Source: Marinobacter sp. es.048
GTDB taxonomy: Bacteria; Pseudomonadota; Gammaproteobacteria; Pseudomonadales; Oleiphilaceae
Length of the DNA: 64,000 nt
Direction of reading: 5' to 3'
Assembly (NCBI RefSeq): GCF_900188435.1
Contig: NZ_FYFA01000001.1
Location: forward strand, 1,798,001-1,862,000
Positions 16,411 to 63,556 of this stretch are shown here, piece by piece; the first letter of the stretch is position 1; every line of letters starts with the position of its first letter. Both the position numbers and the translations under genes were made by a program. Below the pieces are notes generated by a model. It made no database searches. It saw only the letters and a program-made list of their open reading frames with translations, and was not told where the DNA came from.

Positions 16411-16880
16411 GAGTCTTTATCCGTTTCCTCTGCTTCGTAGGGATTGCCAAATCCGAGCTGCGCCAACAGCCGGATTTCGAGGGCTTCCATGACCTCGGCA
16501 TCATCGTCTTCAATATGGTCAAAACCCCGGAGATGCAACATGCCATGCACCACCATGTGAGCCCAATGGGCGTCCAGGGTTTTGTCCTGCTCTGTGGCCT
16601 CTTTCTCGACAACCGGTGCGCAAATCACCAGATCTCCGGCCAATGGCACCGTTATACCGGCTGGCGCCTCAAATGGGAAGGACAACACGTTGGTCGGGTA
16701 GTCCCGGCCCCGGTACTGATGATTCAAGGCTTGGCTTTCTTCGGTTCCGACAATACGGACCGTCACCTCGGACGGATCCTCGCCCTGCCAGGCAAGTTGC
16801 GCCCATTTTCGAACCTTCGTCTCCGAAGGTATCCCCGGCGCCTCGAAAACCTGCTGAAAATCCACTGTCAGCTCGCTCAC
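16407..16880 (-). CDS. ybeY: endoribonuclease YbeY
   Basis: Zinc-dependent single-strand RNase for 16S rRNA 3'-end maturation and ribosome quality control. 157 residues. Metal site HGMLHLRGFDH fits the family H-x3-H-x5-H pattern, and TNVLSFPFE is also conserved. It overlaps phoH (4 bases) upstream and corC (4 bases) downstream. This ybeZ-ybeY pairing is widely conserved and the partners are thought to act together. Confidence 0.95.
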   Translation of the reverse strand: MSELTVDFQQVFEAPGIPSETKVRKWAQLAWQGEDPSEVTVRIVGTEESQALNHQYRGRDYPTNVLSFPFEAPAGITVPLAGDLVICAPVVEKEATEQDKTLDAHWAHMVVHGMLHLRGFDHIEDDDAEVMEALEIRLLAQLGFGNPYEAEETDKDS

Positions 16881-17860
16881 TGGCCGGTCGCACTCCCGTC
16901 ATCAAAGGAATCGTAGGCTTCAACAATCCGCTGAACCAGCGGGTGACGAACAACGTCTTTTGCTTCGAACCGGGTAAACCCGATACCTGGCACCTTGCTC
17001 AGAACTCCGGCTGCGTGAATAAGCCCGGAATTCTGGCCCCGGGGCAGATCCACCTGGGTAGTATCGCCGGTGATCACCGCTGTGGAGCCGAAGCCGATCC
17101 GGGTCAGAAACATCTTCATCTGCTCCCGGGTGGTGTTCTGGCTTTCGTCCAGAATAATGAATGAGTTGTTCAGCGTGCGGCCGCGCATGAACGCCAGCGG
17201 CGCAATCTCGATCACGCTTTTCTCAATCAGCCGGGTAACCTGGTCAAACCCAAGCATTTCATACAGAGCGTCGTACAGCGGACGCAGATAGGGGTCCACC
17301 TTCTGGGCAAGGTCACCTGGGAGGAAGCCAAGCTTCTCACCGGCCTCGACCGCTGGCCGAACCAGCAAAATCCGCTTCACCTGCTCGTCTTTCAGGGCCT
17401 CAACGGCACAGGCCACCGCCAACCAGGTCTTGCCGGTACCCGCCGGGCCGATCCCGAAGTTGATATCGTGGGTGCGGATGTTATGAACATACTTCTGCTG
17501 GTTTGCACCCCGGGGCTTTGCCTGCAGCTTCGGCGTCTTGATAACCGTCACGGCACCGTCGTAGGGCACGTCTTCGGGTAAGCGTTCAAAGCCGGTTTCC
17601 CGGATAAACAGATGCACGGTATCCGGCGCAATATCATCCGTGGCTTCGGTCTCCCGATACAGATGCCGGATAACCTCAACGGCCGCTGCCACGTGCTCGG
17701 TCTCACCCTCAACTCGGAAATGATGGCCGCGCCTGCCGACTTTCACGTGCAGGCGTTTTTCAATCATCTTCAGGTTTTCATCAAACTGGCCACAAAGCGT
17801 CGCCAGCCGACGCTGGTCCACCGGGTGCAGGTCAAATTGTCTGTGATCGTTGGCGTTCAA
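16877..17860 (-). CDS. ybeZ: PhoH-like ATPase (YbeZ)
   Basis: 327-residue P-loop NTPase. Walker A GPAGTGKTWLA, Walker B region SFIILDESQNTT, and RPAVEAGEKLGFLPGD are PhoH hallmarks. The N-terminal ~100 residues form a KH-like domain, consistent with RNA binding. Probably an RNA-related ATPase partnering YbeY. It is separated from the upstream miaB by a 523-base, repeat-filled gap, unusual for this otherwise tightly packed operon. Confidence 0.93.
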   Translation of the reverse strand: MNANDHRQFDLHPVDQRRLATLCGQFDENLKMIEKRLHVKVGRRGHHFRVEGETEHVAAAVEVIRHLYRETEATDDIAPDTVHLFIRETGFERLPEDVPYDGAVTVIKTPKLQAKPRGANQQKYVHNIRTHDINFGIGPAGTGKTWLAVACAVEALKDEQVKRILLVRPAVEAGEKLGFLPGDLAQKVDPYLRPLYDALYEMLGFDQVTRLIEKSVIEIAPLAFMRGRTLNNSFIILDESQNTTREQMKMFLTRIGFGSTAVITGDTTQVDLPRGQNSGLIHAAGVLSKVPGIGFTRFEAKDVVRHPLVQRIVEAYDSFDDGSATGQ

Positions 17861-17931
17861 AAGTGCTCCGTTTTGGTTTACTCCCCCCTGGTTTTTCGTT
17901 TGGGAGTACGTGTTTCTGATGTTCGGTTAAC

Positions 17932-18044
17932 GGGCAAGGGCCGGAGGGGCTTTCCAAAAAACGCCCGTGAATACGTCCCTGTAGGGCTCGGTCGCGCCAT
18001 CCATGGCGCTCCACGTTTTTGGAAAGCCCCTCCGGCCCTTGCCC
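17932..18044 (-). repeat. private-arm twin-GGA element, copy A
   Basis: Arms at 17932-17963 and 18014-18044 are inverted repeats of about 31 bp with one bulged A; the arm sequence is not shared with other copies. The core reads on the minus strand: hairpin GCGCC-ATGGAT-GGCGC and hairpin TAC-AGGGAC-GTA. The two GGA triplets (18002-18000 and 17978-17976) are 24 nt apart. The second loop reads ACAGGGACGT. It lies between miaB and phoH, in sense with them. Confidence 0.85.
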
Positions 18045-18082: not shown

Positions 18083-18170
18083 GTAGGTCGGATTAGCCGG
18101 AGGCGTAATCCGACAGGTTCATTCGTGACAGCCACATTGTTGGATTACGACTTCGTCTAATCCAACCTGC
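18083..18170. repeat. paired REP sequences (REPIN-like), pair 1
   Basis: Two GTCGGATTA-type palindromes in inverted order: 18083-18115 (GTAGGTCGGATTA...TAATCCGACA) and 18138-18170 (complement reads GCAGGTTGGATTA...TAATCCAAC). The CGG/CCG to TGG/CCA change in the second keeps the stem paired. The layout is typical of REP doublets mobilised by RAYT transposases; no RAYT gene is in the window. Confidence 0.85.
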
Positions 18171-18203: not shown

Positions 18204-18241
18204 GCCTTCTGGTTTTGGCATGCAATGGAGCAATCAGCGGA

Positions 18242-18347
18242 GAGTGGTGGGGCCTTCTTCCCAAAAATGTCGGCGGCCATGGATGGCCGACGCCAAGCGC
18301 ACATGGATGTGCTCGTAGCGGTTTTTGGGAAGAAGGCCCCACCACTC
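18242..18347 (+). repeat. private-arm twin-GGA element, copy B
   Basis: 26-bp perfect arms (18242-18267 and 18322-18347). The core on the plus strand differs from copy F by a single base over 54. First hairpin loop CATGGATG (GGA 18281-18283); second hairpin GCACA-TGGA-TGTGC (GGA 18305-18307), 24 nt apart. It is antisense to the flanking miaB and phoH. Confidence 0.88.
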
Positions 18348-18383
18348 GCCAAACTCCCAAGCCGGACAAATCCCGAATAAGGC

Positions 18384-19730
18384 CTAAAACATCTCTGAGT
18401 TCACGGGCACCCCGCGAAGAGAGTTGGCATAAGCCTCCACAATCTCCACATCAATAAAGTGCCCGACAACCTCCGGATTCTCATGCCGGAAGTTCACAAT
18501 CCGGTTGTTCTCGGTACGCCCCGCATACTCTCCGGGGTCCTTCTTGGACAGGCCGGTCACCAGAATCCGCTGGGTGCTGCCAACCATCTTGCGGCTGATG
18601 TCCATCACATTCTGATTCAGGCGATCCTGCAGGATGCTCAGACGCTGCTTCTTGACGTCCATCGGAGTTTCATCGGGCAGATCGGACGCGGGCGTGCCCG
18701 GACGGGCGCTGTAGACGAAGCTGAAGGACATGTCGAAGCCGATGTCGTTGATCAGCTTCATGGTGTCCTCGAAATCTTTCTCTGTTTCACCCGGGAAGCC
18801 GATAATGAAGTCCGACGAGAAACTGATATTCGGGCGGATCTTGCGCAAGCGGCGGAGTTTGGATTTGTACTCCAATGCCGTGTGGCCACGCTTCATGGCC
18901 GCCAGGATCCGGTCAGAGCCGCTCTGGACCGGCAGGTGCAGGTGGCTGACCAGCTCCGGAACGCGCTCATAGACGTCGATCAGAGCATCCGAGAATTCCA
19001 CCGGATGGGAGGTGGTGTAACGGATGCGGTCGATGCCGTCGATGGTGGCGATCAGTTCGATCAGTTCTGCAAGGTCCATGATGTCGCCGTCGTGGGTTTC
19101 GCCACGGTAGGCGTTCACGTTCTGGCCCAGCAGGTTCACTTCGCGAACGCCCTGGCTGGCCAGATGGGCCACTTCGGCGATTACATCGTCGGCCGGGCGG
19201 CTGACTTCTTCGCCTCGGGTGTAAGGCACTACACAGAAGGTGCAGTACTTGCTGCAGCCTTCCATGATCGAAACAAACGCGGAGGGGCCGTCTGCGCCGG
19301 GTTCGGGCAGGTTGTCGAATTTCTCGATCTCCGGAAAGCTGACGTCCACCACGCCCACACCGTTACCCTTCGCCCGCACTTCGGTAATCATGTCGGGCAG
19401 GCGATGCAGGGTTTGCGGGCCGAAGACCATGTCGACATACGGGGCGCGGTCGAGAATGGCCTGACCTTCCTGGGAAGCCACGCAGCCGCCCACGCCGATA
19501 ATCATCTCGGGTTTTTTGCTTTTCAGCTTTTTCCAGCGGCCAAGCTGGTGGAACACCTTCTCCTGGGCTTTTTCCCGAATGGAGCAGGTGTTTAGCAGCA
19601 GGATGTCGGCGTCATCGGGTGAATCGGTCATTTCGACGGTTTCACCGGTTTTGAGCAGGTCTGCCATGCGGGCAGAGTCATACTCGTTCATCTGACAGCC
19701 GTGGGTTTTGATGTACAGCTTCTTGGCCAT
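18384..19730 (-). CDS. miaB: tRNA-2-methylthio-N6-dimethylallyladenosine synthase
   Basis: Radical-SAM methylthiotransferase acting on i6A37 of tRNAs that read UNN codons. 448 residues from the ATG at 19730 ([20 protein letters not shown], the canonical opening). Longer in-frame starts would add residues with no family match. N-terminal cluster cysteines in [21 protein letters not shown] and [11 protein letters not shown]; radical-SAM CxxxCxxC in [12 protein letters not shown]-terminal TRAM domain. First gene of the miaB-phoH-ybeY-corC-lnt string. RimO (25510) is its paralogue. Confidence 0.96.
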
Positions 19731-19915
19731 GGGTCTCACGTAATCTGATGGATGTTGCGCCGGGAACTGAATGGTCTGAAGGGGCGCCAGCAAAAAGGAA
19801 CTGCGTATTATAACGGGGTGCTTAAACTTCAACCACCTTTGTCTCGGCTAGTTGCTAGTCCGCTTGTGGTATTATTTTTGGTTCTTTAAATCGACAATCA
19901 AGCCCGAAGAAGATC

Positions 19916-21647: not shown

Positions 21648-21754
21648 TTTTGGCTCCTGTTCGTTGTTTCGGTTGACTCAGAGGGGCGGGATTCTGCCAT
21701 GTATTGGTGATGGATTCATTCCTGGTCTGCGGGTTCTGGGGTGGGCCGCAGGGC

Positions 21755-21827
21755 AGGTGATTCTTTTTCTTCCGAAAAAACAACTCGCTTCGCTCAGACA
21801 TTTTTTTCTACCGAAAAAGAATCACCT
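21755..21827 (-). repeat. private-arm repeat, second family, copy 1
   Basis: Perfect 15-bp arms AGGTGATTCTTTTTC / GAAAAAGAATCACCT around a conserved core that reads on the minus strand AAAAAAATGTCTGAGCG + AAGCGAGTTG. The core contains the mini-hairpin GCGAAGC. Same core as the copy at 21923, in opposite orientation; outer arm bases differ between the two but remain complementary within each. Confidence 0.8.
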
Positions 21828-21922
21828 ACCCCAGGTCCACGAGCCTTTCAGTGGTCCGCTTAAAAAGGAATGCATGCTTTGCCGTGCTTTTGCTTTGGGG
21901 ATTATCGACAAAGTTTGCCGGC

Positions 21923-22001
21923 GGTGGGGGTATCTTTTTCTGTAGAAAAAAATGTCTGAGCGAAGCGAGTTGCTTTTCACAAAGAAAAAGATATCCCCAC
22001 C
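21923..22001 (+). repeat. private-arm repeat, second family, copy 2
   Basis: 19-bp arms (21923-21941, 21983-22001) ending GGGGGTATC / GATATCCCC, with one G-T mismatch that would be G-U in plus-strand RNA. Core AATGTCTGAGCGAAGCGAG plus TT. It lies just after the cysN stop, on the opposite strand. Confidence 0.8.
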
Positions 22002-27015: not shown

Positions 27016-27051
27016 GGTAGTTTCTTTCATGCGTTTTCCGGAGGGTATCAC

Positions 27052-27159
27052 GCCCTGGCAGGTGACTTCTCCCGAAAATGTCTGTGGCCAAGGATGGCCA
27101 CAGCCAAGCGCACATGGATGTGCTCGTAGCGTTTTTCGGGAGAAGTTACCTGCCGGGGC
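27052..27159 (+). repeat. private-arm twin-GGA element, copy C
   Basis: 27-bp arms (27052-27078, 27133-27159). The only two non-Watson-Crick positions are T-G and G-T, that is G-U pairs in plus-strand RNA. First hairpin CTGTGGCC-AAGGAT-GGCCACAG is a perfect 8 bp. Second hairpin GCACATGGATGTGC. GGA at 27092 and 27116, 24 nt apart. In sense with the upstream rimO, so it could form in its 3' UTR. Confidence 0.87.
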
Positions 27160-27217
27160 TGCCCCCAACCAATCAGGCTAGGGCCGAAACAAGAAGTCCC
27201 GACCCAAGATGGCGGCC

Positions 27218-30507: not shown

Positions 30508-30577
30508 GCATTGCCTCCCAGGTAAGTGAAATGTCGGTAATAAATCTTTTGAAAACGCGGGCCAATCCTGAGCTTCG

Positions 30578-30687
30578 GGGCCGTTCGGGGAATCCTTTTT
30601 AAAACTGTAGAGGGCCATGGATGGCCCGAAACAAGCCCACAGGGATGTGCTCGTAGCGTGTTTTGAAAAGGATTCCCCGAATGGCCC
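30578..30687 (+). repeat. private-arm twin-GGA element, copy D
   Basis: 28-bp arms (30578-30605, 30660-30687) with two mismatches, both G-U type in plus-strand RNA. First hairpin GGGCC-ATGGAT-GGCCC; second loop ACAGGGATGT. GGA at 30619 and 30643, 24 nt apart. It sits between divergent gatC and mreB, so it could be in the mreB leader RNA if the promoter is upstream of it. Confidence 0.87.
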
Positions 30688-30779
30688 TTCACCAGGGCCA
30701 GAAAACCAAAGCGAGTATGGTAACAGATTCGAACAATGGCGGGAGGCCCCAGCCCATAAGGTAAATGTGTGAACCGTAA

Positions 30780-58902: not shown

Positions 58903-58926
58903 CCTTTGGAGCTAGCGGGCAGCGCA

Positions 58927-59108
58927 AGGCAGGCACCCCTTCCCGGGAACCGCTACGAGCACCCGCAGGCGGGTCCAGCCAGCAATCGCAGATTGCTGTC
59001 GTTCGGCTGTCGCATGAAGCTTAGCTTCATAAACGCTCGGCCTCACCCATCTGCGCTTGACGTCGGCCATCCTTGGCCGCCGACATTCCCGGAAAGGGGT
59101 GCCTGCCT
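58927..59108 (-). repeat. private-arm twin-GGA element, copy E (expanded, partly degenerate)
   Basis: 23-bp arms (58927-58949, 59086-59108) with one mismatch, G-U in minus-strand RNA. Core on the minus strand: first hairpin loop CAAGGATG (GGA at 59072-59070); the position 24 nt on reads GGG, not GGA (59048-59046). About 70 extra bases bring two added hairpins, ATGAAGCTTAGCTTCAT (59014-59030) and AGCAATCGCAGATTGCT (58981-58997). Antisense to hisC and the NIF3 gene. Confidence 0.8.
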
Positions 59109-59149
59109 CGCTCGTCGAACTTCTCAGAAATAGTCCGGAGCGATTACTG

Positions 59150-61832: not shown

Positions 61833-61910
61833 GTCGGATTACGCTTCGCTAATCCGACCTACAAGGTTTCACTCAAAGTAGGTCGGGTTAGCGAAGCGTA
61901 ACCCGACAAA
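61833..61910. repeat. paired REP sequences (REPIN-like), pair 3
   Basis: GTCGGATTACGC...CCTAC at 61833-61862 and GTAGGTCGGGTTAGCG...CCCGACAAA at 61878-61910. The order is reversed relative to pairs 1 and 2. In the second unit GGATTA/TAATCC has become GGGTTA/TAACCC, a compensated pair. Confidence 0.87.
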
Positions 61911-63129: not shown

Positions 63130-63174
63130 ACTCGGGAGTTTGGAAGGGGTTGAAAGCGAACTCCAAAGCCCGAT

Positions 63175-63284
63175 GCCAAGGTGGCGAGGGTTCCTCCGAG
63201 AATGTCGGCGGCCATGGATGGCCGACGCCAAGCGCACATGGATGTGCTAGTAGCGGTTCTCGGAGGAACCCTCACCACCTTGGC
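63175..63284 (+). repeat. private-arm twin-GGA element, copy F
   Basis: 28-bp arms (63175-63202, 63257-63284) with a single C-A mismatch on the plus strand. Core identical to copy B except one base. GGA at 63216 and 63240, 24 nt apart; loops CATGGATG twice. In sense with the thiolase gene upstream. The remaining 63285-63556 has no gene I can support. Confidence 0.88.
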
Positions 63285-63556
63285 GCTCCCCGCAACTGAC
63301 AGCCGCCGAAAAAAACCACCAAAACCAAAGTGGTTGCATCCAAATTTGTTGTCTATAGTGATTCTGTGCGAAGAAACCCGGCGGCAAACGGCGTTAACAG
63401 AGGGATGATAGCAAAATCATACTTTTGACTGATCAAAGCGCCTGAAGGCGTTAGCTATAGTGCCAACATCACGAGCACTGTGCTTGAAGCCTCCAATACA
63501 TCGTGAACACCAATAATCAGAGCAGCGACTCAGAACAACAATGGAGTAGCCTTCCA

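Follow-up and report, generated by a model that had tools for sequence, protein, structure and literature searches.

The 64,000-nt stretch of the Marinobacter sp. es.048 genome analysed here (the window) contains a real multi-copy structured element of approximately 114 nt, in which long outer arms enclose two hairpins with CANGGA(U/C)G loops and which is represented in the window by five intact copies and one split copy. We consider it somewhat more probable than not, with a probability of about 0.55, that these are dispersed intergenic RNA elements of the TwoAYGGAY/YPAL type that carry CsrA-type loops, with the arms being repaired at the locus and the core being shared among the copies. Judging from the sequence, the predicted docking of CsrA is our best guess for the role of the element.

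Element B (positions 18239-18352, plus strand) is a full TwoAYGGAY-like copy, with 123.8 bits in the search with R1, a model built from 31 copies of this genome, and 39.1 bits for the Rfam family RF01731, under the cut-off of 43. Its left outer arm (18239-18267) pairs with the right one (18322-18350) as an inverted repeat of 29 nt with a gap of 54 nt, and the core between the outer arms, approximately 54 nt in the element generally, carries the two hairpins. Hairpin 1 (18274-18289) exposes GGA at 18281-18283, and in the predicted fold the A-U pair of AUGGAU is closed, leaving the loop UGGA; hairpin 2 (18299-18312), which contains ACAUGGAUGU, has GGA at 18305-18307 in a loop of 4 nt in the minimum-energy fold and of 6 nt (AUGGAU) in the centroid. 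These are the sites that the preliminary description of this DNA had placed within 18268-18321; they lie on the plus strand, 24 nt apart, the loop sequences listed there match those of the window copies, and the spacing of 24 nt reported for the window is present in all five intact copies. The RNA fold of element B has an energy of -78.6 kcal/mol (z -7.61). Element A (17930-18044, minus strand; R1 99.5 bits), which has another core type, folds with a z of -8.64, and none of 200 shuffles was equally stable for either A or B. The remaining intact copies, all on the plus strand, are elements C (27050-27163; 117.7 bits), D (30577-30690; 113.1 bits) and F (63174-63287; 120.4 bits).

The sixth copy, element E (58924-59111, minus strand), represents a long split form, with arms at 58924-58949 and 59086-59111 forming an inverted repeat with a gap of 136 nt, and R1 yields 29.7 bits for 59031-59087. 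A structured piece of approximately 82 nt takes the place of loop 2 after CACATGG or a similar sequence; hence, the GGG previously interpreted as a variant of the second site of this copy is instead the junction of the insertion. A similar insertion is found at the same point in several other copies of this genome; four copies of this form align end to end, and more are split in the alignment. It holds small hairpins and a GGCTGGACC-like stretch and occurs in copies with different arms. The long form was observed at loci L086, L088, L101 and L103 of the genome and in further split copies, as well as at the Marinobacter loci L160, L163 and L225 and the same-genus locus L312.

The R1 search of the complete 4.06-Mb genome (two contigs), with the best 150 of 1722 candidates scored, produced at least 68 hits, antisense ones included, and at least 59 sense-strand places could be aligned; 54 of these are clean, and the loop, spacing and arm counts exclude the other five, which are disrupted or misaligned. 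The first GGA is intact in 49 of the 54 clean copies and the second in all 50 clean copies without the insertion. In these 50 copies, the distance between the two GGA is 24 nt in 29, 23 nt in 13, 25 nt in 7 and 16 nt in a single copy that has lost hairpin 1; thus, the spacing described as fixed at 24 nt is so in the intact copies of the window but not genome-wide, where it is mostly 23-25 nt. The outer arms measure 26-30 bp in 44 of the 54 copies (range 14-39) and are 93% Watson-Crick paired (1236 of 1332 pairs), and at least one compensated two-sided change was found for 29 of the 36 consensus pairs among the 31 copies used for R1. Both here and in the matches from other gammaproteobacteria, the loops read C-A-N-G-G-A, followed mostly by U or C and then by G, with the N base free, and loop 1 keeps CANGGAUG despite changes in the stem. 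As to whether GGA is more conserved than the other core bases, GGA is kept while the stems change but is not unique in this, since AGC and GCG at the junction vary hardly more than GGA does. Homogenisation of the core within the genome could alone hold GGA constant.

The loops and their spacing are compatible with recognition by CsrA. The genome has one csrA match, the 52 matched residues of which pass the CsrA models, indicating an ordinary CsrA. According to passages of PMC7652899, the SELEX consensus of CsrA is RUACARGGAUGU, presented mostly in six-base loops, and a CsrA dimer bridges sites 10-63 nt apart. Loop 2 fits this consensus except for the free R position, GGA lies in a hairpin loop with an ACA-N-GGA-UGU-like sequence, the fold leaving a loop of 4 or 6 nt, and two sites 23-25 nt apart would be close enough for a single dimer, as had been anticipated. 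Across gammaproteobacteria, csrA is present in 313 of 369 genomes. Among those with a completeness of at least 90% and a contamination of at most 5%, it was detected in 64 of 65 genomes with the element versus 216 of 249 without it (Fisher p 0.006), a difference that kinship and genome size confound. Five of the 77 element-bearing genomes lack a csrA match; G196 among them has a completeness of 98%, and that of the other four is below 90%.

Where a stem functions on a single strand, G.U is tolerated there, and the same change appears as A.C on the other strand. In our counts, which score G.U and A.C alike, the wobbles in the arms of 118 elements from 117 fetched loci of named genomes, chosen by the core pattern, are distributed 96:13 in favour of G.U, when read on the GGA strand. 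Identical elements were counted once for this figure, which excludes 17 places, 6 of them at locus edges and 11 with weak arms, the latter including Yersinia, one Pectobacterium, Morganella, Moritella, Rheinheimera, Christensenella and a viral contig. The corresponding ratio is 46:12 in the arms of the 54 copies of this genome and 32:11 in the loci of other gammaproteobacteria, where a tandem array of six contributed a single copy; at the two miaB sites traced across the genus it is 8:3 and 5:5, with numbers that are few and not clearly unequal. The excess of G.U over A.C implies that the GGA strand is the folded one. By itself, this bias fits either RNA or single-stranded DNA, and part of it could stem from mutation linked to transcription.

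The closest described relative is TwoAYGGAY, with which the elements share two GGA-loop hairpins inside an outer stem of poorly conserved sequence; indeed, the outer stem of our elements is unconserved, as in the description of that family. However, matching copies score only 23-39 bits against RF01731: the window copies yielded 39.1 and 32.7 bits at a gathering threshold of 43, the search of the genome returned 14 hits, the best at 37 bits and none over the cut-off, and none was found at the gathering threshold in 18 loci of other genera. In addition, the second loop base is Y only in TwoAYGGAY but any base, often A or G, in our elements, which also differ in having many dispersed copies per genome and long, nearly wobble-free arms. 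Portions of PMC2864571 list TwoAYGGAY for the human gut, gammaproteobacteria and Clostridiales and rate it as probably an RNA and probably not cis-regulatory. In PMC4333381, tandem G-A pairs are noted in one stem, and CsrA binding was proposed for the motif as a Clostridia sRNA, with a call for validation; tandem G-A pairs seem, by eye, to be present in some of our core types. Rfam clan CL00106 groups TwoAYGGAY with RsmY.

A scan with the loop-and-junction pattern retrieved at least 116 stretches of named genomes, mostly of Marinobacter, and one viral contig. Matches with full arms beyond Marinobacter come from Halomonas, Haliea, Microbulbifer, Idiomarina, Saccharospirillum, Alloalcanivorax and Aquisalimonas. 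A match in Christensenella (L164) has no arms and was taken as chance, and blastn against plasmids and phages gave no match, the viral contig being found by pattern only. The matches in Yersinia and Pectobacterium correspond to the YPAL/RU-2 repeat: over the stretch compared by eye, the Yersinia similis copy L167 is one base off the RU-2 sequence given in PMC2759123. YPAL/RU-2 has the same CANGGAUG loops, AGC/GCG junction and core architecture and is likewise intergenic and present in many copies, but in Yersinia and Erwinia it is described, in sections of PMC2229807 and PMC2759123, as approximately 168 bp long, with a weaker stem, and as mobile. YPAL is also stated in PMC2229807, in the section concerned, to be transcribed together with upstream genes, for which the word used in that review is co-translated. 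YPAL and CsrA were not found together in one paper in a search of the open-access literature. The Yersinia sRNA family Ysr224 (RF02770) matches YPAL copies with 129.9 bits (L167) and 73.3 bits (L145) and runs opposite to the GGA-loop strand in the Yersinia and Pectobacterium relatives; several copies are reported as transcribed in Y. ruckeri, with no strand given in the relevant part of PMC12112432.

With a broader model, R2, the element was detected in 77 of 369 gammaproteobacterial genomes, many of which, besides Marinobacter sp. es.048, carry at least 10 copies; the best ten candidates per genome were scored, so that copy numbers are lower bounds. In a sample of the phylum, 33 of 398 genomes have the element, all of them being the present genome or members of the same genus, order or class. 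GGA is retained in both loops in 55 of 57 R2 matches from 44 loci of other gammaproteobacteria, a figure that leans towards GGA because R2 was built from elements chosen by GGA and that includes six matches from one tandem array, whereas stems such as GCGCC, AAAAC or CTTTC swap among these matches and the N base is free. The array, at 1416-2662 of L288 (genome G544), consists of six elements at intervals of approximately 227 bp, with a GTAGGAGCGGCTTCAGCCGCGATAAG palindrome alternating with them. Overall, the elements very likely are a gammaproteobacterial branch of the TwoAYGGAY kind, YPAL included, and the TwoAYGGAY-like elements and YPAL/RU-2 look like one gamma-wide family. The loop type had been predicted earlier; the apparent gamma-wide family, the arms rewritten in compensated blocks at fixed sites and the genome-specific cores are new here.

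According to a simple gene caller of our own, 57 of the 59 copies lie between called genes. There is no bias in orientation relative to the host genes, with 13 copies in sense tandem, 16 in antisense tandem, 19 in convergent and 11 in divergent positions. In 35 of the 59 copies, the downstream neighbour is the 3' end of an oncoming gene, within 60 nt in 28 of the 35. No promoter signal stands out upstream relative to the other side (p 0.85, 175 elements), and an own promoter was accordingly rejected. Together, the orientation and promoter tests lend no support to a fixed place in mRNAs. Of the proposal that the elements are putative CsrA modules, acting as local regulators or as a dispersed sponge, the module itself is consistent with the fit of loops and spacing, the presence of csrA and the strand favoured by the wobbles, but with no preferred orientation and no promoter signal neither of the two roles is supported.

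Elements A and B sit between miaB (18384-19832, minus strand; TIGR01574, 610.3 bits, over the cut-off), the neighbour of B, and a phoH-like gene (16877-17860, minus strand; NF007827, 201.1 bits, cut-off 380), the neighbour of A, with ybeY next. A, which is 69 nt from the phoH-like gene, is sense to both genes and B is against them. This gap was searched in 61 genomes of the genus, of which 59 matched, and 30 loci were read: under a counting rule that took orientation into account, site 1 (element B) is occupied in 20 and site 2 (element A) in 19. L305, at a contig end, was wrongly placed among the 10 loci free of site 1, given that its two elements appear to correspond to sites 1 and 2. At L316, the sole element next to miaB is on the opposite strand and may be site 2, site 1 having been lost, and loss is likely at L290 and L310, which retain a piece of the right arm. 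A Microbulbifer element (L213) groups with element B by its flank and may lie beside miaB in another family, although this could be chance.

Elements at the same place, as grouped by their flanks, mostly differ among genomes in both arms and core, although a few are nearly identical. In most rows of site 1, the outer and inner parts of the arms are alike, and approximately five middle pairs vary by genome with pairing intact. Counted over pairs of sequences, so that the cells are not independent, changes at site 1 comprise 1033 two-sided Watson-Crick, 112 one-sided via G.U and 151 others, and those at site 2 comprise 1512, 72 and 72, respectively; single uncompensated changes were seen by eye in some close pairs of the miaB loci. 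Intermediates as scarce as these would be expected from template-switch copying of one arm from the other, a process treated in passages of PMC8794818, so that the covariation of the arms alone is no proof of selection on RNA. Among 86 Marinobacter elements from 44 genomes, core identity is 0.829 within versus 0.765 between genomes, a difference reached in none of 1000 label shuffles, whereas arm identity is 0.458 versus 0.425 (8 of 1000 shuffles). Thus, the core seems to be homogenised within a genome and the arms to belong to the site.

Several other explanations have to be weighed against the RNA element with CsrA-type loops. The copies could be MITE-like, non-autonomous mobile palindromes, the core of which a recombinase or transposase would read as single-stranded DNA, with the loops serving as the DNA signal. 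Their dispersed, intergenic positions without orientation bias and the genome-specific cores would fit such an origin, the strand-biased wobbles fit a hairpin of a single DNA strand too, and passages of PMC2229807 call YPAL/RU-2 mobile, with target duplications of 3-26 bp. Nevertheless, no Y1 transposase was matched in the genome, the arms vary from site to site without constant ends, site 1 is occupied in 20 of the 30 loci of the genus, and plasmids and phages gave no blastn match, with one viral contig found by pattern, which leads us to regard mobility of this kind as unlikely.

A function at transcript ends appears quite improbable. On this account, the elements would be bidirectional 3'-end or processing hairpins, with the arms stabilising or ending transcripts both ways or being cut by RNase III, and GGA being secondary or bound by another RNA-binding protein. 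The arms, at 93% Watson-Crick pairing, can form on either strand and, as the counts above indicate, often face the 3' end of an oncoming gene; yet, in the copies that were read the outer stem is not followed by a T-run, a hairpin of this type would need neither the ANGGA loops nor the conserved junction bases, and the wobble bias favours one strand. Stand-alone sRNA genes that titrate CsrA, like CsrB or RsmZ, would account for the paired CsrA-type sites found in almost all copies, at no fewer than 59 places, and for the tandem array of six elements in another genome, and these sponge RNAs likewise show GGA in hairpin loops. However, CsrB is a single locus with many sites, as outlined in PMC7652899, whereas our elements have two sites per copy and no promoter signal, and Ysr224 lies on the opposite strand; accordingly, we consider sRNA genes very improbable. 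A search for RsmZ itself (RF00166) gave at best 25.1 bits in this genome, under the cut-off, with 12 of 14 control genomes matching likewise, and was rejected; the place of the best hit looked like a gene end with a terminator.

If the elements are RNA elements with CsrA-type loops, transcription of the GGA strand would allow the outer arms to close a long stem, with a junction and two short hairpins on top, each loop presenting an A-N-GGA site of the CsrA type. One CsrA dimer would then, most likely, bridge the two sites, and the bound CsrA might protect the carrier transcript, hold it back or be titrated by it. At the DNA level, the arms would behave as a locus-bound palindrome, one arm being repaired from the other by template switching, and the core would be shared out among the copies of one genome. 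A more far-reaching version, in which, in place of a single sponge RNA, dozens of intergenic dual-site modules form a chromosome-wide network, found across gammaproteobacteria, that tethers or titrates CsrA on numerous transcripts, with cores kept uniform by conversion, template-switched stems and a covariation made partly by replication, is tentative and less probable than not. Should CsrA bind the copies, easily missed repeats would need to be added to the map of its targets, both in Marinobacter and in many other gammaproteobacteria, and its titration would spread across the chromosome. The element would, furthermore, unite three separate names, TwoAYGGAY, YPAL/RU-2 and Ysr224. CsrA aside, the arms preserve abundant natural examples of compensated changes in blocks at fixed sites, a resource relevant to the use of covariation as proof of selection on RNA.

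REP and REPIN sequences are short dispersed palindromes outside genes, associated with RAYT. Our elements are dispersed palindromes too, but their arms are far longer and differ from site to site; a REP/RAYT origin was rejected, the Y1 transposase domain PF01797 being without a match in the genome. A second, REP-like repeat, GTAGGTCGGATTA...TAATCCGAC, is located at 18083-18169 and 61833-61907 of the window and also upstream of several elements, although the genome lacks that match. In the scan of the window for inverted repeats (script score of at least 32, within 260 nt), six of the nine long repeats are the elements themselves, and insertion of the core into ready-made palindromes was therefore rejected; of the other three, one is a REP-type repeat and two form a nested pair (21751-21977), with arms of 19 and 45 nt. 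As for shared flanks, a GTTTGG...CCAAAC extension was seen by eye, and AGGCTA occurs in 20 of 174 3' flanks, 12-23 nt past the right arm and often as AGGCTAGG, at loci that are not all orthologous.
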